Notes under the pieces: model-generated
The model's database searches: none
What the model saw: only the letters and a program-made list of their open reading frames with translations
What the model was told of the DNA's origin: nothing
Made by a program: the position numbers and the translations under genes
Origin: Canibacter zhuwentaonis
GTDB lineage: Bacteria > Actinomycetota > Actinomycetes > Actinomycetales > Microbacteriaceae
Assembly (NCBI RefSeq): GCF_018531145.1
Contig: NZ_JAHDSZ010000004.1
Span: 1 to 64,000 of the forward strand
Reading direction: 5' to 3'
DNA: 64,000 nt
Shown: positions 11,934 to 35,428 of the stretch, piece by piece
How the letters are laid out: the number at the start of each line of letters is the position of its first letter
Numbering within the stretch: position 1 is the first letter of the stretch

Positions 11934-12116
11934 TCAACGTTTCCGCAGCAGAACAGCAGCGACCGCGCAGCCGACACCCAGCAGCACCAAGGACACAGTA
12001 TTCGCGAAACCGGTTATATCACTAACCACGTGCCGAGACCACAGCAGCCCAAAGACTCCTCCCGCGAGCAAAAACAACACCGCAACACCCAACAAAATTT
12101 TTGAAATTTTTGACAT
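11934..12116 (-). CDS. small two-helix membrane protein of the RiPP-like operon
   Basis: A 60-residue protein (MSKISKILLG...) with two hydrophobic helices (about 5-25 and 34-54) and a basic end (LLRKR). The ATG at 12116 is preceded by a GGGAAG purine run; a longer frame to 12146 would overlap the next gene. It is the last gene of the run from 17158 to 11934, 13 bases after the ABC permease. Its size and position are like those of bacteriocin immunity proteins, but this is inference from context. A 9-bp dyad (11912-11920 with 11929-11937) overlaps the stop codon and may act in termination, although no T tract follows. Confidence 0.6.
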   Translation of the reverse strand: MSKISKILLGVAVLFLLAGGVFGLLWSRHVVSDITGFANTVSLVLLGVGCAVAAVLLRKR

Positions 12117-12129
12117 GGCTTCCCTATTC

Positions 12130-12813
12130 CTACTTCCCAATCTCAATCAATCCTTGCCGCGACAGCCACCGCAAAACAAGTATAAAGCACGCCACAGTCG
12201 CAAGCACCGCAGAACCTGTAACGGACACAAGCACAATGAGTGATACACCCTGGGGCGAGTTAGCAAAACTGTTGACGCTCAACATAGAAAGACAGAATGC
12301 AACGAGCAGAGCTGTAGCGTCATTACTCCAGAAGACACCTGCCAGCAACGACAACAGATACAGCGCCGAAGCCAGTAGCCCGGTAAGCCCCGCAGCCACC
12401 ACAATCATCACCACAAACTCGCTTTCTGCCTGCAGCACTGTGAGAATCACCGCAGAGCCGCCCATTAACACGAGCAGGTTGGTCAACACGGAAGGCCAAG
12501 CTACGCTCATAACATCACGCGCGACGTAGTACCCAGCAGTGCGCGGATACGACAGATACATTGACCGATAACGCTTGTGATACAGGGTGAGTATGCCTTT
12601 GCGCTGCCAGAAAGTATCGGTAACCGTGAACACCCAGGCGCAAATGGCAAACGAAATAAACCAGGCTAACGGAGCAGTGACAATATTGCTCTCTGCTGCA
12701 AGCGAAAGCACCACACCAAAAAAGACAATCGCGAAGGCGAACACCCCAAGGCGCAGGGCAACCATAATTATCAGATGCTTGCGTGTCAGCCGCATCGGAT
12801 AGGTGATATTCAT
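12130..12813 (-). CDS. ABC-2-like permease subunit (transporter B)
   Basis: A 227-residue membrane protein with six hydrophobic segments (about 12-40, 46-64, 100-125, 132-160, 165-185 and 190-220). A short soluble loop with TFWQRKGILTLYHKRYRSMYLSYPRT lies near 65-90, resembling the coupling region of small ABC-2 permeases. It overlaps the upstream ATPase gene by four bases (12810-12813), so the pair is translationally coupled and most likely forms one transporter. It may expel a peptide product or protect the producer; the cargo is not shown. Confidence 0.7.
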   Translation of the reverse strand: MNITYPMRLTRKHLIIMVALRLGVFAFAIVFFGVVLSLAAESNIVTAPLAWFISFAICAWVFTVTDTFWQRKGILTLYHKRYRSMYLSYPRTAGYYVARDVMSVAWPSVLTNLLVLMGGSAVILTVLQAESEFVVMIVVAAGLTGLLASALYLLSLLAGVFWSNDATALLVAFCLSMLSVNSFANSPQGVSLIVLVSVTGSAVLATVACFILVLRWLSRQGLIEIGK

Positions 12814-13460
12814 GTGCGCTCCCTCACTGAAGTGTTGTCAATCATAAAAGTTGTATGCCTCACGCCCGCAAACATGGTTGGGTCATGCGTAACGATCAGG
12901 CTAATCCGACCTTCTGCCGCGTGGCTGTCAAGTATTTTAACAAGCAGTGTTTTGCTCTCAGCGTCTAGGGAATTTTCTGGCTCGTCAAGCAGCAACAGGC
13001 TTGGGGAATTAATCCATGCGCGCGCCAGCGCCAAACGCATCCGTTGTCCTGCAGACAGGCTTTCTGTCGCAGTATCAATCTGCTGTGTAAGATCAAAACG
13101 CTCAAGCGTTTCTGCTACTGAAACGCGCTGAGAAAAATGCGCCGCGTGATATTCTAGAGTTTTACGACAGGTCATACCTGGATAAAACACCGGATCACCA
13201 ATCAACGCACCCATATCCTCACGCGGATATCTCAATGGTGACTCTTTGCTAGGTGCCGCAGGCGATACCGCAAACGTGACGCGACCTGCGCTTGGTCGCA
13301 ACATACCCGCAACAACTTTCAAAAGAGTCGTTTTGCCAGACCCGTTCGCCCCGGTAAGCAACACAGTATCACCAGCAGACAAAGAGAGAGAAATATTCTT
13401 TAAAATCTGTTTGCCATTTACCGCACAAGACAAAGAGTCAACTTCAACACGTCCGATCAT
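12810..13460 (-). CDS. ABC transporter ATPase (transporter B)
   Basis: A 216-residue stand-alone nucleotide-binding domain: Walker A GANGSGKTT (about 37-45), a signature changed to LSAGQR (about 135), Walker B LLLLDEPENSLD and the H-loop in IVTHDP. Four-base overlaps on both sides join it to the permeases at 12130-12813 and 13457-14206. With its downstream permease it forms the second of two ABC systems in the operon. Confidence 0.85.
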   Translation of the reverse strand: MIGRVEVDSLSCAVNGKQILKNISLSLSAGDTVLLTGANGSGKTTLLKVVAGMLRPSAGRVTFAVSPAAPSKESPLRYPREDMGALIGDPVFYPGMTCRKTLEYHAAHFSQRVSVAETLERFDLTQQIDTATESLSAGQRMRLALARAWINSPSLLLLDEPENSLDAESKTLLVKILDSHAAEGRISLIVTHDPTMFAGVRHTTFMIDNTSVRERT

Positions 13461-14206
13461 TCTCTCTTCCTCAGTCTACTAATAGCTAACACAAAAGGCG
13501 CAACAAACCAGAAAAATAGAACGGAAAAGTCTCGCCATAATTCTGTATAGGTAACGTTTAATAATCCCTGAGACCATTCCAGAACTCGTAAACCAGGATA
13601 AAACGGTAGTAGCCAGTGAATTAAAACTAACCAATCAGGAAGCCTGTCGGCCGGATACAAAAGCGGCGTAAATAAAAATGCGATCAGGGCCAACGCTTGA
13701 CTAAGGAGCTGAACAAGCCCAAGTTTAAAATAGAGAGCCAACACGATACCAAGACCTACATAAATACAAACCAAAAGCATCGCGAATAGAAATGACTCTA
13801 AGCGAATTGGTGGAAGATTACGAAACTTTAACATAGCCACGAAAAAGCTAATGACAAATCCAAGCGATGACATAATTAACCAAACAAAAAGCTCAGATAA
13901 AAAGATCGTAGATCGACGAACAGGCAATGTTTTTACATAATCTACGTATCCGCTCAAATTGCTTTCGGAAATAATTTGGGGGCAAATAGAAAGACCGATT
14001 ATTATTGAGCTCAGTAACCAGACAGAACACAAAGTCTTACCACTGGTAATTGGTGATGAATCTTGAGAATGACCAGCAATTAAAGGTAATCCCCAAAAAA
14101 CTGCAAGACTAAAAAGTATTTGAACACCGGGGAGTACAACCCATAAAGCTTTGTATCGTAGGAAAGTAAACCATAGGATGCCCACGATTTGGTTGGCTGA
14201 AGTCAT
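13457..14206 (-). CDS. ABC-2-type permease subunit (transporter A)
   Basis: A 249-residue protein with six predicted membrane helices (about 17-40, 58-78, 103-128, 135-165, 170-190 and 222-243) and no soluble domain, as in ABC-2 permeases for drugs or peptides. Its start overlaps the stop of the ATPase at 14203 by four bases. The sequence is visibly richer in A+T than the rib genes nearby. Cargo is unknown; peptide export or self-protection fits the context. Confidence 0.75.
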   Translation of the reverse strand: MTSANQIVGILWFTFLRYKALWVVLPGVQILFSLAVFWGLPLIAGHSQDSSPITSGKTLCSVWLLSSIIIGLSICPQIISESNLSGYVDYVKTLPVRRSTIFLSELFVWLIMSSLGFVISFFVAMLKFRNLPPIRLESFLFAMLLVCIYVGLGIVLALYFKLGLVQLLSQALALIAFLFTPLLYPADRLPDWLVLIHWLLPFYPGLRVLEWSQGLLNVTYTELWRDFSVLFFWFVAPFVLAISRLRKRE

Positions 14207-15135
14207 TTTTCCAGCTCCCTTGTATTGAGCGCCTGCAAGCTTTCATAAATGTCGGCAAATCGGGGAGTAAAAGCAGCATTAAAATCGTGGATAGTTCCGG
14301 CGGTCATTTGATTCTCTATGGATCCCAAAAAAGAAATGATATCTTTTCGAGGAACGATATAAACAACTTTGTTTCCGACAGCCTCGGAGATATAATTCTT
14401 AGAATAATCCGGAATAAACCGAGTGTCGTAGACCACCTCAAAACGAACGTTATCGGTAAGTTTAGAAAGACTCTTTGTTTGACCGGAATAAACCAACTCT
14501 CCGTTATTAAGAACCAGAACATGGGAGGAATTAGCATCAATTTCATCCAAGTTGTGAGAGGTGACTATAAAAGTTCTCCCTTTATCGGTTTGAGTTCGCA
14601 AGAAATCCCACATTAAGGAACGTCGCTCAGGGTCAACATCATTAGTTGGCTCATCCAAGAGGGTGTAAGAAGCCCCTTGGATAAGAGCCATTCCCAGTGA
14701 CACAAGACGAAGTACGCCCCCGCTAAGGCTCTCTGAAGGAGATTTTGCCCAAGCGTCAAGTTTAAGAGCCTCGAAATATTCTGCAATGTTGCTTCGTGCT
14801 TGATTTCGAGATATTCCCCGAATCATAGCAGCGCTCATTAGAGCTTCCTGGGGCGTGACTCCACGCAAATAAGCATAGCTTTGAGTCATAAACGCGAAAG
14901 TTTCACGACATTTATTTGGGTGGCGCAAAATATTTTGTCCAGAATCTATACGAACTTCACCGTAACTGGGTTTGATATTTCCTGAGAGGATTCCCATCAA
15001 AGTCGATTTGCCAGCCCCATTATGTCCAGTCAAACCGATAATGTTACCGTCCTCACTCGACCAGCTGACTGAACGTAAGGCATATTTTCTTGATAGCCTG
15101 TAACGCTTACTAACCTCAAGTATCTCTAGAGCCAT
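14203..15135 (-). CDS. ABC transporter ATPase (transporter A)
   Basis: A 310-residue ATPase of the ABC-2 (CcmA/BcrA-like) group: Walker A GHNGAGKSTL (about 36-45), Q-loop near MTQSYAYLRG, signature LSGGVLRL (about 138), Walker B YTLLDEPTNDVDPE, H-loop TSHN. About 90 residues follow the ATPase core, as in BcrA-like exporters. It overlaps the M50-like gene by ten bases and its own permease gene by four, so all belong to one operon. Confidence 0.88.
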   Translation of the reverse strand: MALEILEVSKRYRLSRKYALRSVSWSSEDGNIIGLTGHNGAGKSTLMGILSGNIKPSYGEVRIDSGQNILRHPNKCRETFAFMTQSYAYLRGVTPQEALMSAAMIRGISRNQARSNIAEYFEALKLDAWAKSPSESLSGGVLRLVSLGMALIQGASYTLLDEPTNDVDPERRSLMWDFLRTQTDKGRTFIVTSHNLDEIDANSSHVLVLNNGELVYSGQTKSLSKLTDNVRFEVVYDTRFIPDYSKNYISEAVGNKVVYIVPRKDIISFLGSIENQMTAGTIHDFNAAFTPRFADIYESLQALNTRELEK

Positions 15136-15896
15136 CTGAAACCTCCTTGGGGTAAATCAACCAGGAGCGGAAACACCCAGCAAGCAAGGTAAATGGTATC
15201 ACAAAAAATAGCAAGACCAGATCTAACACGCCAATCTAACCTATGCAGAAACCCCTCGGGCTTGTCTAACAAAAAATTAATTGTTAGTGCAACATCTCGT
15301 TTTGCAAAAATATTGAATTGCCATAGTATTCGAAAGACTAAAACTGACCAAACAAACAAGGCAAATTGGATGCCTGTAGTTAAAAAGAATAAAACAGCGA
15401 CGCCCGCCAAGGCAAAGTCCAGAGCTATCCCCAAAAGCAATGCGTCTATAGCACAGAGTTTAGGCCACGACCAAATATGATTAAGCTTTGTTCGCATTAC
15501 AAAAGTTATAAGGTTACTAGACAGATGTATTGATCTTCCAAAAATCATGTGCATCAGTTCATGCGCCACTGTGCTCACAATAGCCACCAATACAAGTAAT
15601 AAGAAACTAATCAGTAGACTGTGGTCAAGCGAAGCCCATATCCTCGCTGAAGGCAATATGCTATGTGATAAAATAAATACCAATGTTAGGCAAAGACCTG
15701 CCGTACCGAGCAAACGAACAAGTAGGCGTGATATTTCCCAGAATATGCCTTCGGGTTGTCTAATGTCCTGGCTTTCATTCGCATCACTGTGAGAATGTTT
15801 CCAGTTGTTCCAATCCTCTAGACTATTAAAAATAAGCGGAGTCAACGATGCGTTCGTCACTACCACGCGACCATCTTTGAGAGTACGAAAACGCAT
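15126..15896 (-). CDS. M50-like membrane metalloprotease of the RiPP-like operon
   Basis: A 256-residue integral membrane protein with about six hydrophobic segments. The third carries HELMH (H112, E113, H116), the HExxH zinc site of site-2-type proteases. A later NIFAKRD segment supplies D201 at the place where peptide zinc metalloproteases of the YydH kind have N-x-x-P...D-G as third ligand. Such proteases cut modified precursor peptides within the membrane. A soluble N-terminal part of about 55 residues precedes the helices. I start it at ATG 15896, five bases after AGAGG; the TTG just before is possible. It follows the E1-like gene by eight bases. The proteolytic role is inferred. Confidence 0.7.
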   Translation of the reverse strand: MRFRTLKDGRVVVTNASLTPLIFNSLEDWNNWKHSHSDANESQDIRQPEGIFWEISRLLVRLLGTAGLCLTLVFILSHSILPSARIWASLDHSLLISFLLLVLVAIVSTVAHELMHMIFGRSIHLSSNLITFVMRTKLNHIWSWPKLCAIDALLLGIALDFALAGVAVLFFLTTGIQFALFVWSVLVFRILWQFNIFAKRDVALTINFLLDKPEGFLHRLDWRVRSGLAIFCDTIYLACWVFPLLVDLPQGGFRWL

Positions 15897-15904
15897 CAAT
15901 ACCT

Positions 15905-17032
15905 CTAGACATCCTCGTTATAGTACGAAAATATCTCCCAGTCTTCATACCTCCCATGACCGCATGTTGGGCATTTATCAAATTTTGACCAGTCGGGATG
16001 TGAAAAACTAGTGTAATTCACGTAATCTATTTCATGCTGGTGTCCCAGAGTTTTAGGTTCAGCAAAGTTTGTTACCAGCCGAACACACTCATCAACCATA
16101 ACGGATGCAATCTGCCATATTGAAGGACCATAAGCAATAGTTGGAGGCGTAAATCCAGATTCGTGAAAGCCTCTGAACTGAGCTACAAAATTTGCATCAT
16201 TTTTCGAGTAGTATAGATTCAGGCAATCGAAACAACCAGTATTCCCCGGGATTATTGTAAAAACACGACCGTGCGTAAGTTGTGTAGCTCCAAAAACGCA
16301 GGGCTTATTTAGATTCACAATTGCTTTATTAACTCTCCGTTGAGCCACAAACGGCGGCTCGTCAAGCGCGCATATAACTATATCTGCATCGCTTATAACT
16401 GCTTCAACATCACCCACTGAACTGATTCGCTTATTTACGCCTTCTACCTTCAAATCAGGATTCATATCGTTTAAAGCCGCCACAGCTGCTTCAACCTTTA
16501 GCTTTCCTATATCAGAAGACCGATATAGGAATTGTCTTCCCAGATTCGATAACTCAACTTTGTCATAATCCACAAGAGTTACCTTACCAAATCCAATACC
16601 AGAGAGGAGTGTTGCGATGTTAGACCCACCGCCGCCAAGACCCAGCAACGCTACTGTAGTTCTAGCTAATGTCTTATGCGCTATTTCTGCTTTTAAAGAA
16701 CTCCCACTAGGCTGCGCCGCGTAATATTCAACATTTGATAAATATCGCTCCGGGATGCTATCATACTCATGCTTGTCGTCTAATAGTCCGTACTGGGCGA
16801 GTATATCTAGCCCCTTGATAATATCTTGTGAAGATAGATCTGGGTGGACTAATTGGACTCGGTTAATCACATCACCTACTGAAGATCCGTCTAAAGCGTT
16901 CACGAGAGTTCTCATCTGACCTTTTGGATCTGTAAATTGTGCGGTAATGCCCAGCTGTGCCCCTATACGAAACACAGTATCCGTTAAATCATAAACAGGT
17001 AATGATTTCTTAATAAGCGGATTAGAATACAT
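15905..17032 (-). CDS. E1-like (ThiF/MccB/PaaA-type) peptide-modifying enzyme
   Basis: A 375-residue protein. Residues 1-115 form a small domain like the peptide-clamp/recognition part of MccB. Residues 116-375 are an E1-like adenylating domain: ATP loop GLGGGG (131-136), VDYDKVE with D157, SNLGRQFLY (162-170), DIGKLK, and two zinc Cys pairs (C267/C270 and C354/C357). In microcin C and pantocin A pathways such enzymes adenylate a short ribosomal peptide. Here the gene directly follows the 20-codon peptide gene, separated by a stem-loop, and precedes a metalloprotease and two ABC transporters. AAGGA stands five bases before the ATG. A role in ThiS-type sulfur transfer is less likely because no thi or moa genes adjoin it. 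Confidence 0.82.
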   Translation of the reverse strand: MYSNPLIKKSLPVYDLTDTVFRIGAQLGITAQFTDPKGQMRTLVNALDGSSVGDVINRVQLVHPDLSSQDIIKGLDILAQYGLLDDKHEYDSIPERYLSNVEYYAAQPSGSSLKAEIAHKTLARTTVALLGLGGGGSNIATLLSGIGFGKVTLVDYDKVELSNLGRQFLYRSSDIGKLKVEAAVAALNDMNPDLKVEGVNKRISSVGDVEAVISDADIVICALDEPPFVAQRRVNKAIVNLNKPCVFGATQLTHGRVFTIIPGNTGCFDCLNLYYSKNDANFVAQFRGFHESGFTPPTIAYGPSIWQIASVMVDECVRLVTNFAEPKTLGHQHEIDYVNYTSFSHPDWSKFDKCPTCGHGRYEDWEIFSYYNEDV

Positions 17033-17049
17033 AACAGTCCTTTATAACA

Positions 17050-17087
17050 GTAAGTACGGGTGTCCAAAAAAGTGAACCCGTACTTAC
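17050..17087 (-). terminator. stem-loop between peptide gene and E1-like gene
   Basis: A perfect 12-bp stem (17050-17061 with 17076-17087, GTAAGTACGGGT/ACCCGTACTTAC) closes a 14-base T-rich loop. It begins nine bases after the peptide stop and ends 18 bases before the enzyme start. No long T tract follows, so it looks like a leaky terminator or processing/stability hairpin that lets the peptide be made in excess of the enzyme. Confidence 0.7.
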
Positions 17088-17095
17088 CCTTTTAA

Positions 17096-17158
17096 TTAGA
17101 AGATGATCCACCATGCGGCGGCTTCTACCTCTTCAGCGCGTTCAACCTTCACGTCCAT
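17096..17158 (-). CDS. candidate 20-residue precursor peptide
   Basis: ATG at 17158 opens a 20-codon frame ending TAA: MDVKVERAEEVEAAAWWIIF. A near-perfect ribosome site (GAAGGAGG) lies six bases before it, and an in-frame TAA 18 bases upstream leaves no longer start. The first half is charged (Asp, Lys, Glu, Arg) and the end is hydrophobic (AAAWWIIF), as in a leader-core arrangement. It is the first gene before an MccB/PaaA-like enzyme, a protease and two exporters. The Glu-Glu pair at 9-10 recalls the Glu-Glu used by PaaA in pantocin, and the Trp-Trp recalls double-tryptophan pheromones; both are analogies only. Too short for ordinary gene callers. Confidence 0.72.
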   Translation of the reverse strand: MDVKVERAEEVEAAAWWIIF

Positions 17159-17245
17159 TTTTCCCTCCTTCGTTTACTACTTTTGATAGGGGATTGGGAG
17201 CTTTTGCAACTCCCAGCTTTATGATATCAGCCTACACAGAATTGG
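17159..17245 (-). promoter_or_regulatory. leader and putative promoter of the peptide operon
   Basis: On the minus strand TTGCGC and TATCAT lie 18 bases apart, ending near 17221, and could be -35/-10 boxes; a TTGACA farther up (near 17262) is an alternative -35. The leader holds a hairpin (TGGGAG/CTCCCA, 17195-17200 with 17210-17215) and the strong SD at about 17163-17170. Promoter boxes are by eye only. Confidence 0.45.
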
Positions 17246-17638
17246 CGCAAGCATTATTTTAATTGTCAACGTAGGGAGACTTTTGCCTAATTTGACTAGT
17301 GTGTCAATTGTTACAATATCCCGGCCATGCACTTTGCCATCACAGAGCGGACTGGAACTGTCTGTTGTGCAGAGGTAGTTCTTAGTTAGTTGCCTGACAA
17401 AAGGGTTTTTAAGCGACTTGCTGCTTAATTATTTTGCTTCCTGTTTCTAGGCGCGTCCGTAGAGAGCGCATCCGTTCTTGCCCAGTTCGATCACTGTGTG
17501 CTGCTCAGCCACTTTGAGCACATGAAAAGTGTACCGATTTACACGATCGAAGGCATGGGTATGCCAGGAAGCATACGCATACTTGCACCCCACCGCCCAG
17601 CATCTAAAAGAATATGTGCTAAAATAAGAAGTAGCTCA
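17246..17638. other. non-coding stretch, no intact gene
   Basis: About 390 bases between the peptide operon promoter and a decayed gene. Minus-strand frame 17539-17638 is open but joins no ribosome site and looks like chance. Probably remnants of older insertions near tRNA-Ala. Confidence 0.4.
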
Positions 17639-17917
17639 TCAGCCAGGTACTGAAGGAGTATCTGGAGTCGTCCTTTGGTGCGACTCTTGCTGTTCCTGCT
17701 TGCTCCAGTACGCATCATACTCAGCTTTGAGTTTTCGTTGACTGTGAGCGTACTCAACGTGCTACGCGGTGACAAGTACCGCGTAGCTTGGCTTTTCGTC
17801 AACAATTACCACATAACTAAAATCATCGAACGTAAGCAAGTATCGTCGCGTATTTCCACGTACTCGGGAACTAACCCACCAGAGAATCTCGTGTTTACGG
17901 GAAAATTGCAATATTTT
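17639..17917 (-). pseudogene. decayed small gene with in-frame TAG
   Basis: One minus-strand frame reads ILWWVSSRVRGNTRRYLLTF, then DDFSYVVIVDEKPSYAVLVTA, a TAG at 17762-17764, then HVEYAHSQRKLKAEYDAYWS and an Asp/Gln/Pro-rich end to TGA at 17639. Apart from the TAG (where TAC/TAT for Tyr would restore an LVTAYHVEY-like run) it reads like a real charged globular domain, and resembles proteins of phages and mobile elements with an R-x-Y-L-T-x-D-x-F-x-Y-V-V-I ... LVTAY pattern (RelE/barnase-like nucleases). No start codon with a ribosome site is left; the frame opens after TAA at 17918-17920. Family assignment is from memory and uncertain. Confidence 0.5.
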
Positions 17918-17931
17918 TTACCCCCTAGACA

Positions 17932-17969
17932 CAAAAACACTCTGGCACATAAATATATTAACGCCAGAG
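17932..17969 (-). terminator. terminator downstream of tRNA-Ala
   Basis: Stem CTCTGGC/GCCAGAG (17940-17946 with 17963-17969) followed on the minus strand by TGTTTTTG. It lies nine bases past the tRNA 3' end. Confidence 0.75.
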
Positions 17970-17978
17970 CACAACCAG

Positions 17979-18114: not shown

Positions 18115-20850
18115 TTATCCAGCCCGGCTCGAGTTAAGCACGGCTTCGGCAACAACGCTCGCTTTTAATAGCATCTCTTCGTATTCCGCTGTTGGCTCAG
18201 AGTCCAGCACAACCGCGCCGCCCGCGCCGATCTCACAACTGCCATTCTGAATTACGGCGGTGCGAATTACGATATTGAGATCCGCTGCGCCGTTAAAGCT
18301 GAAAAACCCGAGCGACCCGGCGTAAACACCCCGCGCACGCCGCTCCAGATTTTCAATAATTCGCATTGTGCTGATTTTCGGCGCGCCGGTCATAGAGCCT
18401 CCCGGAAAACAAGCCCGCGCAGCAGCGGGAGCGCTCACATCCGCTCGCAATCTACCGGTTATCGTTGAAACCAGCTGGTGCACCGTCGCGTACGATTCAA
18501 CCCGCATAAACGCGGGCACCTGCACGCTGCCGCGCTCGCAAACACGGCTCAAATCGTTACGCAGCAAATCCACAATCATTAGGTTTTCTGCGCGCGTTTT
18601 CGCGTCTGCGCCAAGACGCGCGCGCAGTATTTCGTCTTCTGCTGCGGTACGCCCCCGCCTCACAGTGCCCTTAATCGGCTTGGTTTCGCACTCACCAAAA
18701 GCGCTGATTTTCAAAAAACGCTCCGGCGATGAGCACAAAACGCGCAGACCGTTAAGCTGCAAAAACGCCGCGTACGGTGCCGGATTCAAACTGCGCAAGC
18801 GCCGATAAGCCCGCCATGCAAACTCCGCCTCGTCGTATCCTGTTTCGTTATATCCTGCCGCATCCCGACCTGTGGCAGCACAACCTGCCGCACCAGTAAC
18901 GGGCATTTTAATCCTGCTGGTGAGGCACACTTCGTAACTGTCACCCGCCTGCAACACCCGCTGCGCACGTTCCACCAGCGCGGTGTAAGTTTGAGCGTCA
19001 TGCTCCACCAGCGCAGCTGTTGCAAGCGGATCGCGCCCGCCCGGTGCATCCGACCCGGGTGCACCAGGCTCAGCGGTAATTGACCCAGCAGAAACCTGCT
19101 TAAGCGCAACTCCCTCAAGCATAACCGACTCGGACAATAGCCCCTCGGGCGCAACCCTCGCTGTTTCACCCGCACTGTGCGAGTCTCTCAATGCGTCAGT
19201 ATCATACAAGCCACAAATCGTGTTTTTAGCGTTACTAATCCACTGCTCCGCACTTGCGATGTGAGCTGACCCTGTGAGCACTAAAATCCACAACTCGCAG
19301 GCGGCATGATCGTACACAAAAGTATGCGTTGCACGCACCCACACCGAGTCTTGCTCGGACGCCTTGTATTCATTAGCCGATCCACATTCAGCCTTCAACC
19401 CGTAGCCTAAATAACCAACGTATCCGCCCGCATAGTCAAAAGGAAACTCATCTCTTTGCGCAACTTTTGTTGTCGCGATTCGATGCTCCAAAACGCTGAA
19501 AATATCACCCTCAAGCGCAGTCGTTGCCGTGCGCTCACCCGCGCCGGTGTGACACAGCACCACCCCGCTACCGGCTCTGGCAGTCAGTGTTTCAGCAGCG
19601 TGCCCGATGCTGTGCCCCATTATGCTGAATTGCGAAAGACCCTCTATAACCCGGCTGCTGTCCAACCAGAACGCATTTTCGCTACCCCTAAAGAATTTTT
19701 CAAACAGCAGCTCGAGATTACCGCTGAACTCAATTTTAGAACTCACCAGCTCAAAATCGCACCCGCCCGGAGCGCGACCATCACTAAGCACAACAGCGCC
19801 GCGCGTATAAGCATCACAAAACTTTTTAAACCGCTGCTTATTAACGAAAACCCCGTAATTTTCACCCGCAGGCAGCAGCCCTACTCCCGTGAGCGCCTGC
19901 TCTCCAAGCCCGGACGCCCAGTTTTCAAGCTGCGACGCCAGTTCCCAACTCGTAAACGCCCCATTTTCGCCGGCGCGAGACCGGTTTTCGCTCACAGGCT
20001 TCCGCTCCCAAACCGCAGGGATCTCCTCCGCACGCCCGAGCACCCGCTCTGCACCCGCAGGCACGGCAACAGAATCAGCAAATTCACCGCAAATCTCCGT
20101 CACAACACGAATTCCGTGCAGAGCGTTCACAATCCACACCTCGCATTCGCGCAGCTCGTTGAGCGTCACCCACTCCCGAGCGACTTTATACCCAAGCAAC
20201 AGCGCGATATCCGCCACCGCCGCAACGGTCGTACTCGCCAGTGTTTTACCCGGAGGCACGCAGCAGAGGGTGTCACCGCGCCACCACAGCACAGCAGCGG
20301 TTGTTGTTTCGAGCACGCGACCATTTTCGCCCACGAGCAGGGCATCATCAGCGCCCCGCGCAGCAGCACGCCCACGTATTTCCGCCAGGGTTGCTAAATC
20401 TGGGCCCTTGATCGTGGGCTGCGTGCGCACATCAGCGCCCGTATACACCCAAAGTTTCGCACCGGTTTTAAGCGCCGGTGCCGGACGCAGCCAGCACGCC
20501 AACCGCGCAGCATTATCAGCTAGCGGATACGCCTCCACCCGCGGAAACCAGCTCCCGTTTTTAGGCAGCAGCTGCCAAACAGCGTCCCAAAACTGACGCA
20601 GCTCACTGTTTGTGATACTCGCCCCGAGCTGATTTAGCCCGGCACAAAACCTCTCTTCGTGCGCCTGTTTGCTGTGCACTCTGCCGTTTTGCACGAGCAG
20701 CGACTCAACAACACAAATGCTGCTTGTAGGCGGCACACCCTCACGCCAACAGTAATTGCTGCTCTGGCGCGGCGGCTGCTTTGCCGCGAATCCACGGTGT
20801 GTTTCATACAGGATAAAATCCGAGGTCCGTGACCAAAAAAGACGCTGCAA
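18115..20850 (-). CDS. PabC-PabB fusion: aminodeoxychorismate lyase-like + synthase component I
   Basis: A 911-residue protein joining two steps of p-aminobenzoate synthesis for folate. Residues about 40-290 match class IV PLP aminotransferases/lyases (DDALLVGENGRVLETTTAAVLWWRGDTLCCVPP, the cofactor-phosphate loop). Residues about 310-911 match PabB: SSPERFL, PIKGT near 723 with the Lys that marks PabB rather than TrpE, LMIVDLLRNDLSRVC, GGSMTGAPKISTMRIIE and AGGAVVLDSEPTAEYEE. The usual fusion order is PabB first; here it is reversed. A Gly/Ala-rich insert lies near 590-670. The start is TTG at 20850 with GGGGAG ten bases upstream. The amidotransferase PabA is not in the window. The fused first domain may have lost or kept lyase activity. 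Confidence 0.85.
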   Translation of the reverse strand: MQRLFWSRTSDFILYETHRGFAAKQPPRQSSNYCWREGVPPTSSICVVESLLVQNGRVHSKQAHEERFCAGLNQLGASITNSELRQFWDAVWQLLPKNGSWFPRVEAYPLADNAARLACWLRPAPALKTGAKLWVYTGADVRTQPTIKGPDLATLAEIRGRAAARGADDALLVGENGRVLETTTAAVLWWRGDTLCCVPPGKTLASTTVAAVADIALLLGYKVAREWVTLNELRECEVWIVNALHGIRVVTEICGEFADSVAVPAGAERVLGRAEEIPAVWERKPVSENRSRAGENGAFTSWELASQLENWASGLGEQALTGVGLLPAGENYGVFVNKQRFKKFCDAYTRGAVVLSDGRAPGGCDFELVSSKIEFSGNLELLFEKFFRGSENAFWLDSSRVIEGLSQFSIMGHSIGHAAETLTARAGSGVVLCHTGAGERTATTALEGDIFSVLEHRIATTKVAQRDEFPFDYAGGYVGYLGYGLKAECGSANEYKASEQDSVWVRATHTFVYDHAACELWILVLTGSAHIASAEQWISNAKNTICGLYDTDALRDSHSAGETARVAPEGLLSESVMLEGVALKQVSAGSITAEPGAPGSDAPGGRDPLATAALVEHDAQTYTALVERAQRVLQAGDSYEVCLTSRIKMPVTGAAGCAATGRDAAGYNETGYDEAEFAWRAYRRLRSLNPAPYAAFLQLNGLRVLCSSPERFLKISAFGECETKPIKGTVRRGRTAAEDEILRARLGADAKTRAENLMIVDLLRNDLSRVCERGSVQVPAFMRVESYATVHQLVSTITGRLRADVSAPAAARACFPGGSMTGAPKISTMRIIENLERRARGVYAGSLGFFSFNGAADLNIVIRTAVIQNGSCEIGAGGAVVLDSEPTAEYEEMLLKASVVAEAVLNSSRAG

Positions 20851-25742: not shown

Positions 25743-28274
25743 TTACGCGTTATCGGCGGTAACTGCCGCAGCATCCGCCGTATCATCGCTAATCTCAAGG
25801 TTACGCTCCGGGTTGCGCGCAATGCCGATAATCTTATCTTTCGCATCAAAGCGCGCAAACACAACTCCCATTGTGTTGCGTCCCTTCGCAGGAACTCCGT
25901 TTACAGCGGATCTAACAACCTTGCCACTGGTAAGCACCACTAGCACTTCATCGCTTTCATCAACGATGCACGCGCCCACAAGATCACCGCGGGACTCATC
26001 GAGCTTGGCAACTTTAATTCCAAAACCACCGCGCTGCTGCACCCGGTACTCGGCCACCGCGCTGCGCTTAGCGTATCCACCCTCTGTGACAACAAAAACA
26101 AAGCCCCTATCGCTAACCGAGGACGCGCTCAAAAGCGAGTCCTGGTCGCGGAACTTCATGCCGCGCACGCCACTGGTAGCTCGCCCAAGCGGACGTAACG
26201 CCTCGTCTGACGCGGTAAACCGTACCGACATACCCTGCCGTGAAACAAGCAAAACATCATCGTCAGTGCCGATTACAAGCGCCGACACAAGCTCGTCAGA
26301 TTCGCGAAGTCTAATTGCGATAATACCACCCGTGCGATTCGTGTCGTACTCCGCAAGAGCTGTTTTTTTAACAAGCCCGTCTTTAGTTGCGAGCAGCAGA
26401 TATTTATCCTCGTGATAGGCGTCAAGTTCGAGAATCTGCGTCACAGACTCCTCCGGTGTCAGCGCCAGCAGATTAGCAAGATGCTGACCCTTCGCCTCAC
26501 GACCGCCCTCCGGTGTCTCCCACGCTTTAGTGCGGTACACCCGACCCGTGTTCGTGAAGAACAGCAGCCAGTGGTGGGTTGTTGTGACAAAGAAATGCTC
26601 GATCACATCGTCAGCGCGCAAACTCGCGCCACGCACGCCCTTACCACCACGGTGCTGTGAGCGGTAGTTGTCAATCTTAGTGCGCTTAATGTATCCGCCG
26701 CGGGTAACGGTGATTACCATTTCTTCCTCGGGGATCAGATCTTCAATTGACATATCGCCGTCGTGCCAGCGCACAATCTCGGTGCGCCTGTTATCACCGT
26801 AGCGGTCAACGATCTCACCCAGTTCCTGCACGATAATTGCACGCTGCTGCATTGGATTCGCCAAAATCTGCTTAAAATCAGCGATCAAGTTTTGCAGCTT
26901 GGTCGCCAGATCCATGATTTTCTGGCGCTCAAGAGCCGCCAGCCTGCGCAGCTGCAACGCCAGAATCGCTTCCGCCTGCACCTCGTCAATATCGAGCAGG
27001 CTCATCAGCCCCCGCTTAGCCTCTTCAACCGTTGGGGAGCGACGGATCAGGGCGATAACCTCGTCGATTGCGTCGAGCGCTTTGAGATACCCCAGCTGAA
27101 TATGCAGATCAGCGGTCGCTTTTTTGAGTCGGAACTCGGTGCGGCGCACAATCACGCTAATCTGGTGCGTTGTCCACTCGGTAATAAAGCCAGCAAGCGA
27201 GAGCGTGCGCGGCACACCGTCCACAATTGTAAGCATATTCGCGCTGAAATTATCTTGCAGCTGGGTGTGCTTGTAAAGATTGTTCAGCACAACCTTAGCA
27301 ACCGCATCACGCTTCAGCACGATCACGAGTCGCTGCCCTGTACGCCCGGAGCTTTCATCGCGGATGTCTGCAATGCCCTGTATTTTCTGCTCTTTTACAA
27401 GATCGGCAATTTTAATTGCCAGATTATCCGGGTTCACCTGGTACGGCAGTTCTGTTACCACGAGACAGGTACGACCCTGAATTTCCTCGGTGTTAACAAC
27501 CGCGCGCATGGTGATTGATCCGCGCCCTGTGCGATACGCCTCGCGAATCCCCTTGGTGCCCAGAATCTGTGCGCCCGTTGGGAAATCAGGACCGGGCACG
27601 CGCTCCATCAGCCCTTCAAGTAGCTCTTCGCCTTTAATATTGGGGTTTTCAAGATGCCATTTAGCAGCTGCGGCAACCTCGCACAGATTGTGCGGCGGAA
27701 TGTTCGTCGCCATACCAACTGCGATACCAACCGATCCGTTAACCAAAAGGTTTGGAAACCTGCTTGTAAGCACTGTTGGCTCTTGGGTGCGACCGTCGTA
27801 GTTATCTTGGAAATCAACGGTGTCTTCTTCAATGTCGCGCACCATTTCCATTGCCAAATGAGCCATTTTTGACTCTGTGTAACGCGGAGCGGCGGCGCCA
27901 TCATTGCCCGGGCTACCAAAATTACCCTGCCCGAGCACAAGCGGATACCTCAGCGACCACGGCTGCACAAGCCGCACCAGCGTGTCATAAACAGCGCTGT
28001 CACCGTGCGGGTGATACTGACCCATAACCTCGCCGACCACACGGCTTGATTTTGAGAATGATTTATCCGGGCGGTATCCGCCATCGTACATTGCGTAGAT
28101 AACCCGGCGGTGCACCGGCTTCAAACCGTCACGCACATCAGGCAGGGCACGCCCCACGATTACGCTCATCGCGTAATCAAGGTAGCTGCGCTGCATTTCC
28201 GACTGCAGATCTACCCGTGAAATATTGCCGTGGTTATGCTCCGGCTCTGCTCTGCTGCTGTTGTTAGATGTCAA
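25743..28274 (-). CDS. gyrA: DNA gyrase subunit A
   Basis: An 843-residue subunit cutting and rejoining DNA. Catalytic Tyr is Y132 in [11 protein letters not shown]; the quinolone-resistance region reads [10 protein letters not shown] with Ser93 and Asp97, the usual sensitive-type residues. The C-terminal beta-pinwheel follows about residue 500, with the GyrA-box-like QHRGGKG. The TTG start at 28274 lies inside the gyrB 3' end (11-base overlap), so translation is coupled. DUF3566 follows. Confidence 0.98.
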
Positions 28275-30264
28275 GGAATCGCACGTCCTTCGCGTTCTGT
28301 TGGATAAAATTACGGCGAGCTTCTACATCTTCTCCCATAAGCGTTGTGAAAATCTGATCCGCTGCTGCTGCGTCATCGATGCTAACCTGCATTAGAGTAC
28401 GGCTTTCAGGATCCATTGTGGTTTCCCAAAGCTCTTCGTGGTTCATCTCGCCCAAACCTTTGTAGCGCTGCACTCCGCTATCTTTAGCCAGACGCTTACC
28501 ATTGACAAGCCCCTCGCGCAGTTTTTCGTCACGCTCACTATCGCTAAAAACAAAATCGTGTGCCGAGTTTGTCCATTTTAGGCGGTAAAGTGGCGGCTGC
28601 GCGAGATACACATAGCCCTGCTCGATCAGTTTACGCATATACCTAAACAGCAGCGTGAGTAGCAGGGTTGTGATATGTTGCCCGTCGACGTCAGCATCCG
28701 CCATTAAAACGATTTTATGATACCGGGCTTTTTCAACGTTAAAATCTTCGCCTATACCCGCACCAAACGCGGTTATCATAGCTTGAATTTCAGTGTTACC
28801 AAGAATCCTGTCGAGCCTTGATTTTTCAACGTTCAGAATCTTACCGCGCAACGGCAAAATCGCCTGGGTTGCGGGGTTTCGCCCCATTTTCGCTGAACCA
28901 CCGGCGGAATCACCCTCAACAATAAAAATCTCTGAAATAGTTGGGTCTTTGCTCGAGCAGTCAGAAAGCTTGCCCGGCATTCCACCAGACTCTAACAATC
29001 CTTTGCGCCTTGCTGTTTCGCGCGCTTTTCGCGCCGCTAAACGAGCGGTTGCTGCAGAAATCGCCTTGTTAATAATTGCGCGGGTTTCTGTTGGATGGCT
29101 GTTAAACCAGTCACCCAGCTGATCCGCCACAACGCGCTGCACAAAGCCTTTAGCTTCGGTGTTGCCAAGCTTTGTTTTTGTTTGTCCCTCAAACTGCGGC
29201 TCGCGGAGTTTAACCGAAATTACTGCGGTTAGACCCTCTCGTACGTCTTCGCCTAAGAGATTACTGTCTTTCTCCTTCAGCATATTTCGCTCGCGCGCGT
29301 ACTTATTAACCAGGGTTGTTAAAGCCGCTCTAAAACCCTCTTCGTGAGTTCCGCCTTCGTGTGTGTTGATTGTGTTTGCGTAGGTGTGCACACTGTCTGA
29401 GTACGCACCCGTCCACTGCATTGCAATTTCTGCTGAAATAGTGCTGCCGGTATCTTCCAGCTCAAAAGCAATAATTTCGTTGTGCACAAGCTCTGTTTTC
29501 TTCGCAGAATTAAGGTACTCAACATAGTCTTTAATGCCGTTTTCATAGTAAAATTCATCATGTGGCGGATCAGGCATAACCAATTCCCCAGCAGCATTTT
29601 CTACCGCTTCTTGTGGACGCAGATCAGTAAGTTTGATCCGTAGACCCTTGTTAAGGAACGCCATTTGTTGGAATCTTGTGCGGAGTGTTTGGTAATCAAA
29701 CTCAACGGTTTCAAAAATGTCGGCGCTCGGCCAGAAAGTGATTGTGGTGCCCGTTTCGTCACTGGCTTCTCCTCGCGACAGGGGCGCATCGGGAATACTT
29801 TTTGTAAACGACATTCCCCATTTATAGCCCTGGCGCTTAACCTCCACCTCAAATTTTTCAGAAAGTGCATTTACAACGGATGAGCCAACACCGTGCAAAC
29901 CGCCTGAAACCGCGTATCCGCCACCGCCGAATTTACCGCCGGCGTGCAGCACCGTAAGCACAACCTCAACCGTTGATTTACCCTCGGTTGGGTGCATATC
30001 CACTGGAATGCCACGTCCATTATCAGTAACTTTAACCCCGCCATCAACCAGAATTGTAACGGTTATTGTATTGCAGTAGCCAGCAAGCGCTTCATCAACA
30101 GAGTTATCCACAATCTCGTAGACAAGGTGATGTAAGCCTCTTGGCCCGGTAGAGCCAATATACATACCGGGACGCTTACGTACCGCTTCAAGACCCTCAA
30201 GCACTTGAATTTCATTTGCACCATACTCGGTATTTGTTTTGCTGCTCTGTGAATTACCGCTCAT
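28264..30264 (-). CDS. gyrB: DNA gyrase subunit B
   Basis: A 666-residue ATPase subunit of gyrase. The GHKL ATP site has [33 protein letters not shown] and [15 protein letters not shown]. The TOPRIM domain has [15 protein letters not shown] (about 445) and DADVDGQHI. The C-terminal [16 protein letters not shown] and [11 protein letters not shown] end are typical. It follows dciA by 98 bases. The consensus DnaA-box-like TTATCCACA at about 30106 lies in codons for VDNSVD and is probably coincidental. Confidence 0.98.
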
Positions 30265-30362
30265 CTGTTTTCCCCCATACTGAAGTCAGCACGAGGTAAG
30301 TGCTGCACACCAATAATTATCTAAGTTTACCAATAAACCCTAGGTCTTTCATGTTTTCCACA

Positions 30363-30872
30363 CTATCCATAGGTATCACGCAGACCTCTGCCACCCTGCA
30401 CGCGCCATACGCCTCTAGGAAAAGTTACATTACTAACCGGAACAAATTTAAAATCGTAAATCTTAGCTTCCGGATACTTCTCTTGGATAATACACAAATA
30501 CTCGCTTTTTACCCTTCTTATTTGAGCTTGCCAAGCTGTTGTATCACATTTAATGTGTAATATCCCGTTTTGAATTCCTAAAATAGTTGTGTGCAAAGCA
30601 ACGGTTTCGCCCACAATATTTGCCCATTCCAAAATTAACCTGTTCTGGCTAAGCTCTTTACCCCAGTTTTGTTCTCGAATAAACTGCTCCATCACCCAGT
30701 CAAGAGGTTTTGCATCTCTTCCCTTTGTAAAAGGGAGATTGTTTTTATTACTCCGACTTTTTAGGTTGCGTAAAACCTCCTCATAAGATTTGGATTTTGC
30801 CCCCCAGGATTGTTTATGTTCGTCAAGAATCTCAAATAAAAACTTATTCTGCTCTTTATCACTGCCGCTCAC
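30363..30872 (-). CDS. dciA: DciA-like helicase loader (DUF721)
   Basis: A 169-residue protein of the DUF721/DciA family, which aids loading of the DnaB replicative helicase in bacteria lacking DnaC. The core WANIVGETVALHTTILGIQNGILHIKCDTTAWQAQIRRVKSEYL (about 83-125) is the recognisable part. The charged N-terminal stretch is typical of actinobacterial members. Start is GTG at 30872 after AGGAG. It lies between recF and gyrB as in other Actinobacteria. Confidence 0.88.
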   Translation of the reverse strand: MSGSDKEQNKFLFEILDEHKQSWGAKSKSYEEVLRNLKSRSNKNNLPFTKGRDAKPLDWVMEQFIREQNWGKELSQNRLILEWANIVGETVALHTTILGIQNGILHIKCDTTAWQAQIRRVKSEYLCIIQEKYPEAKIYDFKFVPVSNVTFPRGVWRVQGGRGLRDTYG

Positions 30873-30881
30873 ACTAAGCTC

Positions 30882-32114
30882 CTACTCGACAACATCAGAA
30901 TTTACATTCTGGAAGAACTCTGTCGGATTTTCACTACTTCCAACAGCTATTAATTGACCCTTTTTAATCACGTAAATATGCCAGAGCTGATCTTTTGGAA
31001 TATCATCGGCAACCGCTGCTGTTACCAGTATCTGTTCATAATCGGAAATAACGTTCATTAACCGTTTGCGCCGTTCGGTGTCAAGCTCCGCAAAAACATC
31101 ATCAAGAATCAACACCGGATCTTCCGGAGCAAAATCTTTCCTGAGCAAATTAGCAAGAGCAAGTTTTAGCGCGAGCACAATCGACCACGATTCGCCATGA
31201 CTCGCATACCCTTTAACGGGCAACGCGTTCAATTCAAGTTTCAAATCATCACGATGCGCACCGATTAAAGTTTGCCCCCGCTCTATTTCCGCTCTGCGTA
31301 GTTCTTGTAACCTCTCTCTGAAATCTTGCATCAGAGCAGTGGCAGATTCATTCCCCAAATGATCAAACGCAACACTTTCTGTTACAAAGGAGTTTGCAGC
31401 ATATGTTTCACGTGAAACATTGCTACCTGTTTCATGTAATGCAAGCTTAGGAGCGTGATCCGCTCCAACAAGCAGAAAGTAAGCAAGCTCTAATTCTGGC
31501 TGCAATTCATCAATTAATTTTCGTCGTTCCGCCATAATTCTAGTACTGAAATTGGTGAAATTCTGATCCCAAAAATCTAATTCTTCGCTATTAATATCAG
31601 CTCTGCCCAATTTTATATTTTTAAGCAAAGCGGATCGCTGTTTTACAATCTGCTCGTAATCTTTATAAATAGCTGCAAATAACGGATTTCGCGTCACAAT
31701 TGCCGAATATAAAAAATCCCTTCGTGCTCCTGGTTCACCACTCGCAATAAGCAAATCTTCGGGTGCAAACAAAACAGACGTGAAATATCTCGTAAGTTCT
31801 CTAGGCCTTACTCCGTTACCGTTTATCTGAGCACGCTTAGCACTCCCCCGCTTAAACTCCAGCTCTAAACTAACAGTTGCCTGTTTATTAATAACCCGGG
31901 ATCTAACAACACTGCTCTGTTCATCAGCTTTTAATAATGGCGCATCTGCGCTTACTCTGTGCGATGATAACTCATTGAAATAAGCAATTGCCTCAACAAA
32001 GTTAGTTTTCCCCTGCCCGTTACGACCCAAGATCAATACTTTACCCGGTTTTAAATCCGCTTCTAACTCAGAATAGTTCCTGAAATTGAGGAGCGAGAGT
32101 TTATCTACCCTCAC
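30882..32114 (-). CDS. recF: DNA replication and repair protein RecF
   Basis: A 410-residue SMC-like ATPase that helps RecA load at gaps. Walker A is GRNGQGKT (30-37); the signature region lies near SHGESWSIVLALKLA; Walker B is PVLILDDVFAELD. GTG start at 32114 lies nine bases after the dnaN stop. A perfect parS site is embedded at 31404-31419 and reads there as NVSRET; the surrounding segment is otherwise variable in the family. Confidence 0.97.
   Translation of the reverse strand: MRVDKLSLLNFRNYSELEADLKPGKVLILGRNGQGKTNFVEAIAYFNELSSHRVSADAPLLKADEQSSVVRSRVINKQATVSLELEFKRGSAKRAQINGNGVRPRELTRYFTSVLFAPEDLLIASGEPGARRDFLYSAIVTRNPLFAAIYKDYEQIVKQRSALLKNIKLGRADINSEELDFWDQNFTNFSTRIMAERRKLIDELQPELELAYFLLVGADHAPKLALHETGSNVSRETYAANSFVTESVAFDHLGNESATALMQDFRERLQELRRAEIERGQTLIGAHRDDLKLELNALPVKGYASHGESWSIVLALKLALANLLRKDFAPEDPVLILDDVFAELDTERRKRLMNVISDYEQILVTAAVADDIPKDQLWHIYVIKKGQLIAVGSSENPTEFFQNVNSDVVE
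31404..31419. promoter_or_regulatory. parS site 3 (inside recF)
   Basis: Perfect TGTTTCACGTGAAACA within recF coding sequence, encoding Val-Ser-Arg-Glu-Thr. Confidence 0.96.
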
Positions 32115-32123
32115 GCGAAACCA

Positions 32124-33275
32124 CTATCTCATAAGCAGAATTGGCTGTTGCAGATACTTGAACGATTTTTCATCGTGTTCGTCTTTGCTGCGCTGACCAG
32201 TTACCAGAATAGCTCCTGGGCGTTTTGTATTGCTTTTGAAAAATGAAATTCTAATAAACTCGCTTTTTGCGCCGTTCAATCCGTCTTTCAGATACTTGGG
32301 AGTTAGCCCAACGGTAACCTCGTCACCGACCAGATTTGCAAAAACTTCGTCAGTAGCCTGTGAAGCCTCGCCGCCCTGCCCATTAAGTGTAATTTTGTTC
32401 TCTTGAAAAGTGAACTTAATTGCTGAATCGCCATCAATAACAGCCGACACAATATCAATTGTGCGGCGTAAATCATCGGTATTTACAACCGCATAGTGAT
32501 CGAGTGGGATATTCTCAAAGTACTTATGCACGGGCGGAAAAATGCCAGAAATCAGCTTGGTTGTAATAATCTTATTATCACCGATAAAGCCGATAACCTG
32601 CTTATCATCCTCGTTTTTAATAACGAACTGTATTTTTTCAGCGTGTGAAAACTGCTTGCTCACATCACTCACAACTTTAGCCGGCACCAAAAAACTAACA
32701 TCAGGCTGCCCGTTAAGCGGTTGCCAATTAATACCAGTTATTGCGATACGATACCTGTCAGTAGCGCTGAGAGTCATAATGTTATCTTTGATATCAAAGT
32801 TTATGCCGCGCAGAACCGGGGTCACATCATCATTTGATGCCGCTGCGTGAACCTGCAAAATAGCATTTACAAAGTCTTGCCCAACAACTTCGCCAGAAAC
32901 CGTGTCAAGGGTCGGGATTTCAGGATATTCTGCCACCGGCATAGCTGGGAGTTTAAAAACAGCGGATCCGTTACGGATTTCCACCTGATTGTCACTGTCG
33001 TATTCATCAAAGCTAACCTCAACTTCTCTAACAGATAGCTTCTTAGCAATATTTGCAAGTAGTTTGCCCGGCACTAGCACTCGCCCTGGCTTACTGACAT
33101 CAGCCGTGATCTGCATTTTGGCTGACACCTCATAGTTGAAAACAGTAAAGGTTACTTTATCTGAAATAGCTTCAATCAGCACCCCACTAAGAATCGGCTG
33201 CGTGGGTTTATAAAGCATTGACACAGTAAATGAAACTGCTTCATTAAAAACATATGGATTAACAGTGAATCGCAC
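32124..33275 (-). CDS. dnaN: DNA polymerase III beta sliding clamp
   Basis: A 383-residue clamp of three repeated domains that rings DNA and tethers polymerase. Visible landmarks include PTQPILSGVLIEA, LRGINFDIKDNIMTLSATDRYRIAI, FLVPAKVVSDVSKQF and the C-terminal YLQQPILLMR (usually PVR/MR at the end). I choose GTG 33275 (VRFTVNPYVF) because AAGGAG stands seven bases before it; the frame is open to 33320. It is next to oriC. Confidence 0.96.
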   Translation of the reverse strand: MRFTVNPYVFNEAVSFTVSMLYKPTQPILSGVLIEAISDKVTFTVFNYEVSAKMQITADVSKPGRVLVPGKLLANIAKKLSVREVEVSFDEYDSDNQVEIRNGSAVFKLPAMPVAEYPEIPTLDTVSGEVVGQDFVNAILQVHAAASNDDVTPVLRGINFDIKDNIMTLSATDRYRIAITGINWQPLNGQPDVSFLVPAKVVSDVSKQFSHAEKIQFVIKNEDDKQVIGFIGDNKIITTKLISGIFPPVHKYFENIPLDHYAVVNTDDLRRTIDIVSAVIDGDSAIKFTFQENKITLNGQGGEASQATDEVFANLVGDEVTVGLTPKYLKDGLNGAKSEFIRISFFKSNTKRPGAILVTGQRSKDEHDEKSFKYLQQPILLMR

Positions 33276-33621
33276 TGACAGGCTCCTTAGTAAAGGTGAC
33301 AAAGTAGTATCATCAATCATCGCACATAATCTTTAATATCTGCTAGAAATTTGTTTTTGGTGCGAGACCTTAGCAATTTTTATAATTTTAAAATCTTTCT
33401 TATTATTTAAAACCTAATAACAATAAGAACTGTGGAAAATGTGGAAAACTTTGGAATGCGTTAAAATCATTAAAAACTACAGTTTTGTTATTTGTGAATT
33501 GCGATTTGGAAAAGCTGTGTACAGCATAATTACGCGGATGTAATTACAAAGTATGGATCAACAGCCTCGTTTGAGTTACTAACAAAAATTATTGGGTTAT
33601 CCATAATTATCCACAGGCAAA
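33276..33621. other. replication origin region (oriC), dnaA-dnaN gap
   Basis: A gene-free stretch between dnaN and dnaA. DnaA-box-like nonamers: TGTGGAAAA at 33431-33439 and 33440-33448 (adjacent, same direction), TTATCCATA at 33597-33605 and the consensus TTATCCACA at 33607-33615. A run of A/T from about 33376 to 33430 could be the unwinding element. Gene orientation on both sides and the location agree with an origin. Confidence 0.85.
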
Positions 33622-35163: not shown

Positions 35164-35428
35164 AAGCCACCGGTGTAATTTCGGACAGGTTTGCACAATT
35201 TAAATTGCCTAATAAGCATACAGCACACGTCTAGATATTTACTTTTTGTGCGAATGATTTCACAGCTGTTGATAGTAGCTTAATAACTTCTGTGCTGTAG
35301 GGTGTTGAGTGCAGTAACTTTGCGCAGAGAGGGTAATTCGGGTAAAGTGTTAAAATCGTATGACTGCACTGTGTGTTAGTCTTAATTGTTTGAGCGGAAT
35401 AGCCGCAAGTGAATATTGGAGAATATAA
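35164..35428. promoter_or_regulatory. dnaA-rpmH divergent promoter region
   Basis: A 265-base region that must hold promoters for dnaA (minus) and rpmH (plus). No consensus DnaA box was found here. GGAG before ATG at 35429 serves rpmH. Confidence 0.5.

Follow-up and report, generated by a model that had tools for sequence, protein, structure and literature searches.

A 20-residue peptide of Canibacter zhuwentaonis as a probable precursor of an enterofaecin-type RiPP

Within a 64,000-nucleotide stretch of the Canibacter zhuwentaonis genome (the whole of the DNA analysed, hereafter the window) we find a 63-bp gene whose 20-residue product, we think on balance, gives rise to an enterofaecin-type RiPP: a peptide that would be closed into a ring by an indolylamide between indole N1 of the tryptophan at position -4 and the C-terminus, following the mechanism proposed below, and whose product would be antibacterial. 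Sequence comparison establishes that the peptide gene is conserved, that it is linked to a ThiF enzyme with the MccB/PaaA fold and a leader-binding domain, to a HExxH membrane protein and to two ABC systems, and that these lie in a region of low GC content missing from four sister species.

Results

A conserved peptide gene heads the operon

The gene lies on the minus strand only, where 17158..17096 translates to MDVKVERAEEVEAAAWWIIF followed by a stop codon (20 residues); the plus-strand reading of 17096-17158 contains no ORF with a start codon. We annotate it as an EnfA-like precursor peptide gene, with a leader half, MDVKVERAEEVEA, and a core half ending in AWWIIF. The sequence 5' of the start reads ...TAAACGAAGGAGGGAAAA-ATG and includes a strong Shine-Dalgarno element, AAGGAGGG (17159..17172, minus strand), whose AGGAGG core sits 5 nt ahead of the ATG. 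An in-frame TAA lies immediately 5' of this element and, because no start codon intervenes, a longer start for the peptide is impossible; a good ribosome-binding site and the lack of a longer in-frame start had both been noted in the first-pass annotation. The ORF is the first of the operon and lies 63 nt 5' of the ThiF gene.

Might so short an ORF simply have arisen by chance ahead of an unrelated ThiF gene? Its length is very small and no sigma-70 consensus promoter was found 5' of it. However, the peptide is conserved across phyla and carries the marks of purifying selection. In pairwise counts, the peptide genes of the window and of locus L041 differ at 8.5 of 12.0 synonymous (pS 0.71) and 7.5 of 45.0 non-synonymous sites (pN 0.17); the corresponding figures are 3/14 (pS 0.21) and 0/46 (pN 0.00) for L024 versus L026, and 13.5/14.3 (pS 0.94) and 4.5/45.7 (pN 0.10) for L025 versus L028. 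Synonymous change greatly exceeds non-synonymous change in all three pairs, which answers the check on coding constraint suggested at first pass, and the gene is under clear purifying selection. Chance is thereby already refuted by conservation, and we give it virtually no credence. Since orthologous WW peptides with a good Shine-Dalgarno element occupy the same place at 14 other ThiF loci, in addition to three of the SWG type, the comparative evidence confirms the 63-bp ORF as a real gene, far from chance. The earlier suggestion of a real but uncalled peptide gene heading the operon is borne out.

Related loci in Bacillota and Actinomycetota

A peptide of 18-21 residues is encoded 5' of a homologous ThiF gene at 17 further loci from Bacillota and Actinomycetota. 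Fourteen of them encode WW peptides of 20-21 residues, most fitting MKxVTVRRAxKVEATxWWI[IV]x; the other three encode single-Trp SWG[IV]x peptides (18-19 residues) and belong to the window's own family, Microbacteriaceae. Searching plasmids for relatives of the ThiF protein led to a Niallia taxi megaplasmid, where a ThiF with 51% identity to the window enzyme is preceded by the short ORF MKKVTVRRATKVEATTWWIII and followed by homologous genes in conserved order, with the exception of the last permease, which has no sequence similarity. A genome scan contributed loci from Lactococcus ileimucosae, L. garvieae, Falcatimonas, Amphibacillus and Acetivibrio, and further ones from Corynebacterium oculi, Actinomyces israelii, Tessaracoccus, an actinomycete MAG, Nonomuraea and an Intrasporangium MAG; the peptide is present at every one of these but the last, whose contig begins too near. 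Whole-genome searches yielded three more WW loci in the window's order (L040, L041 and L042), two of which, L041 and L042, are the nearest kin, with ThiF identities of 57-58% and the peptide MDVEIERAETVEATSWWILF/L. Within the window's family, three genomes of a single further genus carry MSFTVNRVPTDKKISWGII, MAFTVNRVPTDIKVSWGVI and MSFTVRATKERDISWGVL, each ahead of a ThiF gene.

The HExxH protein and the ATPase/permease genes are retained in WW clusters, and a transporter-like ORF follows the ThiF gene at two SWG loci (L036 and L065). Strongly matching ThiF proteins are rare. Among sampled genomes, the phylum yields 1 in 396, the family 2 in 299 and the order 5 in 396, the window's own genome being counted each time. 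Viral contigs scanned with the ThiF profile gave no relative, and phage records gave only short and distant ThiF matches.

Some loci deserve separate mention. In L. garvieae EP01 (L033, 3765-5512) the peptide gene is intact but ThiF can be matched over only some 105 residues and there is no HExxH gene, indicative of a decayed cluster. In C. oculi an in-frame TGA (L027, 9072-9074) terminates ThiF just past the second CxxC, with homology resuming behind it. On a Priestia koreensis plasmid (L021, 4591-4900), two to three tandem copies of MKKIVVRKLATVTVPQLRPGT, a different candidate RiPP precursor, stand 5' of a ThiF gene that has ABC substrate-binding and MFS genes behind it. Short ORFs with a good Shine-Dalgarno element but no Trp also precede ThiF genes in Macrococcus, Sporosarcina and Nonomuraea (L017, position 4875; L019, 4861; L020, 4880); these ORFs, MSLKMETIKNKAALLGGVPG, MKIRKLSNKQVSKTAVEPR and MIKKSTKRYSVAGGTQKG, may represent further ThiF RiPP subgroups.

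The enzyme and its neighbours

The ThiF-like RiPP adenylyltransferase/cyclase (EnfB-like; 15905..17032, minus strand; Pfam ThiF E 6e-56) has an N-terminal leader-binding (RRE) domain, and phmmer matches it over residues 4-333 to MccB (E 8e-22) and PaaA. Its AlphaFold2 model (mean pLDDT 82.5) aligns with MccB (3h5n) at Z 32.4 and rmsd 2.4 over 328 residues, a span that includes the leader-binding domain, and with PaaA at Z 27.4. R166, K179 and D224 are invariant in 22 ThiF sequences and correspond, as matched by numbering, to R167, K180 and D225 of EnfB; both CxxC pairs are retained. Enzymes paired with a Trp(-4) peptide all fall into one well-supported ThiF clade (98/96), which stands separate from those ThiF loci where the candidate peptide has no such residue. 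The latter (Sporosarcina, Macrococcus, Nocardia, Priestia and N. gerenzanensis, all with candidate short peptides without Trp(-4)) served as outgroups; note that their branches are long and their order in the tree correspondingly unreliable. Among the 22 sequences compared, F228 is confined to the Trp(-4) clade; IndF residues Y228, K256 and T298 can be likened to F228, R256 and T298 of the window by matching residue numbers only.

The remaining genes of the operon are likewise on the minus strand. The ThiF gene is followed by a membrane protein with a HExxH motif (15126..15899), a candidate leader peptidase in which an alignment of 11 family members shows H113-E114-H117, H141, D161 and D212 to be invariant. 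The evidence was too thin for us to call it an M50 (site-2) protease, an identity left as a candidate: a single one of the 11 members matched Pfam M50, at no better than E 0.18; there is no Pfam M16 match, and fold searches with Foldseek and VIA-align returned no convincing fold (best Z 4.3 over 45 residues). Next come ABC transporter ATPase 1 (14203..15135; Pfam ABC_tran E 1e-23; retained in relatives), ABC-2 type permease 1 (13457..14206; Pfam ABC2_membrane; 31% identity to the Niallia gene), ABC transporter ATPase 2 (12810..13460; Pfam ABC_tran E 3e-29; retained in most relatives) and putative permease 2 (12130..12813), the last named for its hydrophobicity and equal position in relatives and having neither a Pfam match nor sequence similarity to its Niallia counterpart. 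The cluster's transporter proteins number four: two ABC ATPases and one permease by Pfam, and a second permease by position only. Between this second permease and xth lies a 70-residue hydrophobic ORF (11934-12146), which could be a small immunity-type protein or a chance ORF.

Conservation of core and leader

Across all 18 loci, the sole invariant feature of the core is a Trp at position -4 with exactly three residues after it. Position -5 is Trp at 15 loci and Ser at three (SWG loci of Microbacteriaceae), position -3 is Ile at 15 and Gly at three, and the C-terminal residue is variously F, I, V, L or A (Phe in the window). The leader reads V-E-R-A in the window, I-E-R-A in its nearest kin and VRRA in most relatives. 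As to which half is conserved, a comparison that the first-pass annotation had called for, the V-x-R-A motif of the leader and the core are both kept, SWG leaders being different, whereas the Glu-Glu pair is not.

This bears on the idea of a pantocin-like toxin with a Glu-Glu core, to which the pair had given rise. PaaA is indeed a fold relative of the ThiF enzyme, so that the hint was sound insofar as the enzyme downstream has the MccB/PaaA fold. However, the pair sits in the leader half, and the site reads EE in the window alone, ET in the nearest relatives and EK, TK or VK in most others. With the alignment showing such variation we rejected an EE core, and a product of this kind strikes us as scarcely credible.

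The three enzymes whose peptides have Glu for the first Arg of VRRA (window, L041 and L042) carry Arg at position 58 of the leader-binding domain and lack Glu81, which is found in all other WW-clade enzymes but one; position 65 is Arg in L041 and L042, and Asp in the window. The leader Glu together with the changes at 58, 65 and 81 fits charge compensation, seen here in a single clade and as one evolutionary event.

A stem-loop between peptide and enzyme

The intercistronic gap (17033..17095, minus strand) contains a perfect 12-bp inverted repeat, GTAAGTACGGGT...ACCCGTACTTAC, which we propose to be a leaky terminator or RNA-processing site, and folds with a dG of -23.4 (z -4.0). The corresponding gap (63-138 nt) forms a strong stem-loop at 18 of 18 loci, with z between -2.3 and -7.2 relative to shuffled sequences (shuffled by mononucleotide for L065 and L066), and for the most part the stems are unrelated in sequence. 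In microcin C biosynthesis, peptide transcript is made in excess owing to a terminator that separates mccA from mccB (PMC6495379); by analogy, we propose that the stem-loop in the gap may serve the same purpose.

No regulator gene was recognised beside the operon in the list of ORFs. Regulators do adjoin several related clusters. Niallia has LytTR/GHKL two-component genes, and response regulators also occur close to the clusters of Lactococcus and Nonomuraea; L042 has a response regulator of the LuxR type, and Corynebacterium and Falcatimonas have TetR genes.

Genomic setting

The first four enzyme/transporter genes have a GC content of 0.40-0.43, versus 0.507 for the window, and the ThiF gene has no match in the genomes of four sister species. 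In all four, trpS and xth lie together and the region upstream of xth is different in each, so that the site is a variable one. Given the distribution of the cluster across phyla and the placement of its nearest kin in another family, sequence comparisons point to acquisition by horizontal transfer. Between tRNA-Ala and the island, no attachment-site repeat was found beyond a 10-mer.

The roughly 800 bp between the peptide gene and tRNA-Ala (17173-17977) contain no convincing gene; an 11-bp hairpin followed by T-rich sequence lies at 17761-17787 on the plus strand. Further along, 18115-20850 encodes a 911-residue ORF, apparently a fusion of class IV aminotransferase-like and chorismate-binding (PabB-like) parts, with no full-length match turning up in the sister species. 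ORFs resembling gyrA, gyrB, recF, dnaN and dnaA are grouped at 25743-35196, and the sign of the GC skew switches at about 34 kb; this region is very likely the replication origin, which would place the RiPP operon about 17 kb from it.

Discussion

On sequence evidence the cluster matches the enterofaecin type of RiPP (EnfA/EnfB), a type known in lactic acid bacteria. Enterofaecin, from Enterococcus faecalis, belongs to the WWIII-type group of Wang et al. 2024 and is made from a 21-residue EnfA with the core WWIVI, the enzyme EnfB and four transporters; EnfB requires both Trp residues and the (V/I)RKA leader, with R167, K180 and D225 as its ATP residues (PMC12250964). The two systems share a precursor of about 21 residues ending in WWI(V/I)x, an RRE-ThiF enzyme with equal ATP residues and four transporter proteins; in the leader, V-x-R-A may be a common element. 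They differ in that the window's host is an actinomycete, in that its leader has VERA rather than (V/I)RKA, and in the HExxH membrane protein, which goes unmentioned for enf in the review (PMC12250964). Regulatory genes, which we judge not to be defining for the type, are reported for enf; none was recognised beside the window operon in the list of ORFs.

What kind of ring should we expect? For enterofaecin, a macrocyclic imide to the backbone nitrogen of Ile19 has been proposed, with MS and NMR cited (PMC12250964), and the WWIVI core of EnfA is nearly identical to that of the window. An imide to the Ile backbone nitrogen would, however, leave unexplained why Trp(-4) is the sole invariant core residue, even in SWG peptides with Gly at -3. 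The pneumococcal IndA/IndF system suggests otherwise: it too has an RRE-ThiF enzyme and a Trp exactly at -4 with three residues behind it, and in its NWYFI core NMR shows indole N1 of this Trp joined to the C-terminal carboxylate, W6A being inactive (PMC12150305). The variable positions -5 and -3 accord with IndA too, where Asn and Tyr flank Trp(-4). Similarity to IndA has its limits, as it has the NWYFI core where the window has AWWIIF, together with a longer leader, an M16 protease and no Trp-Trp pair (PMC12150305). Rajput et al. add that the exact structure of enterofaecin still calls for detailed NMR (PMC12150305). Because no core residue other than Trp(-4) is invariant and the same Trp is the nucleophile in IndF, we favour an indolylamide over the enterofaecin imide for the whole Trp-peptide clade and regard the imide as unlikely for the window, though well short of negligible. 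The broader claim, that all WW and SWG peptides of the clade, enterofaecin included, are closed from Trp(-4) indole N1 to the C-terminus, we consider an even bet.

Two further scenarios do away with the ring altogether. ThiF might add a nucleotide to the C-terminus and so create a Trojan-horse antibiotic, as in microcin C: MccB is the top structural match and its fold covers nearly the entire enzyme, and both operons run from peptide gene to stem-loop to enzyme gene. MccA, however, has seven residues ending in the Asn that is modified, and is nucleotidylated rather than cyclised, whereas the C-terminal residue in the window family is F, I, V, L or A and EnfB, the closest characterised homologue, is reported to cyclise (PMC12250964); we therefore see little prospect for this reading. 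We think similarly poorly of a linear pheromone with a tryptophan pair, like XIP or SHP, acting on an intracellular Rgg-type receptor, which the WW tail and the short gene had suggested and for which the two-component genes beside the Niallia cluster leave a signalling role possible. The peptide is constantly paired with a RiPP-type ThiF enzyme, its SWG relatives lack the WW pair, and no Rgg/ComR-type receptor was recognised among the ORFs adjoining the operon, where the neighbours are xth, tRNA-Ala and the 911-residue ORF. What survives of the idea is that the tail is conserved and important, as a substrate for a ThiF-type cyclase to judge by the neighbourhood. Pantocin A (PaaP/PaaA), finally, is related through its enzyme, distantly in fold and sequence, but its Glu-Glu core has no conserved counterpart in the window family.

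Returning to the indolylamide, we envisage the following route. The leader-binding domain would grip the leader through V-x-R-A; ThiF most likely adenylates the C-terminal carboxylate, here that of Phe20, using ATP and Mg, and then closes the ring, with indole N1 of Trp17 (position -4) attacking to give a four-residue W-I-I-F ring. The HExxH protein may cut off the leader, one ABC pair would export the product and the other provide immunity, and the stem-loop would restrict read-through so that peptide exceeds enzyme. Two ABC pairs make us lean towards an antibacterial peptide: a small hydrophobic cyclic product that would act on other bacteria, possibly as its own inducer too, so that a role of the finished product as a signal is possible. 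Several observations sit uneasily with this account: the imide is the structure published for EnfB, the closest characterised enzyme; the peptidase identity is weak; the window leader has Glu where others have Arg; and no regulator is recognised beside the operon.

For the organism, an unannotated 63-bp ORF becomes the precursor of a biosynthetic pathway. For the family of clusters, the enterofaecin type now reaches into Actinomycetota, among them a bacterium whose genome measures 1.4 Mb; Trp at -4, its constant spacing and the single-Trp relatives provide a comparative argument between two ring chemistries. If the indolylamide does hold clade-wide, it would be an old chemistry spread over Bacillota and Actinomycetota, the imide structure published for enterofaecin would have to be revised, and Microbacteriaceae, with their single-Trp SWG[IV]x peptides, would harbour an undescribed subgroup.
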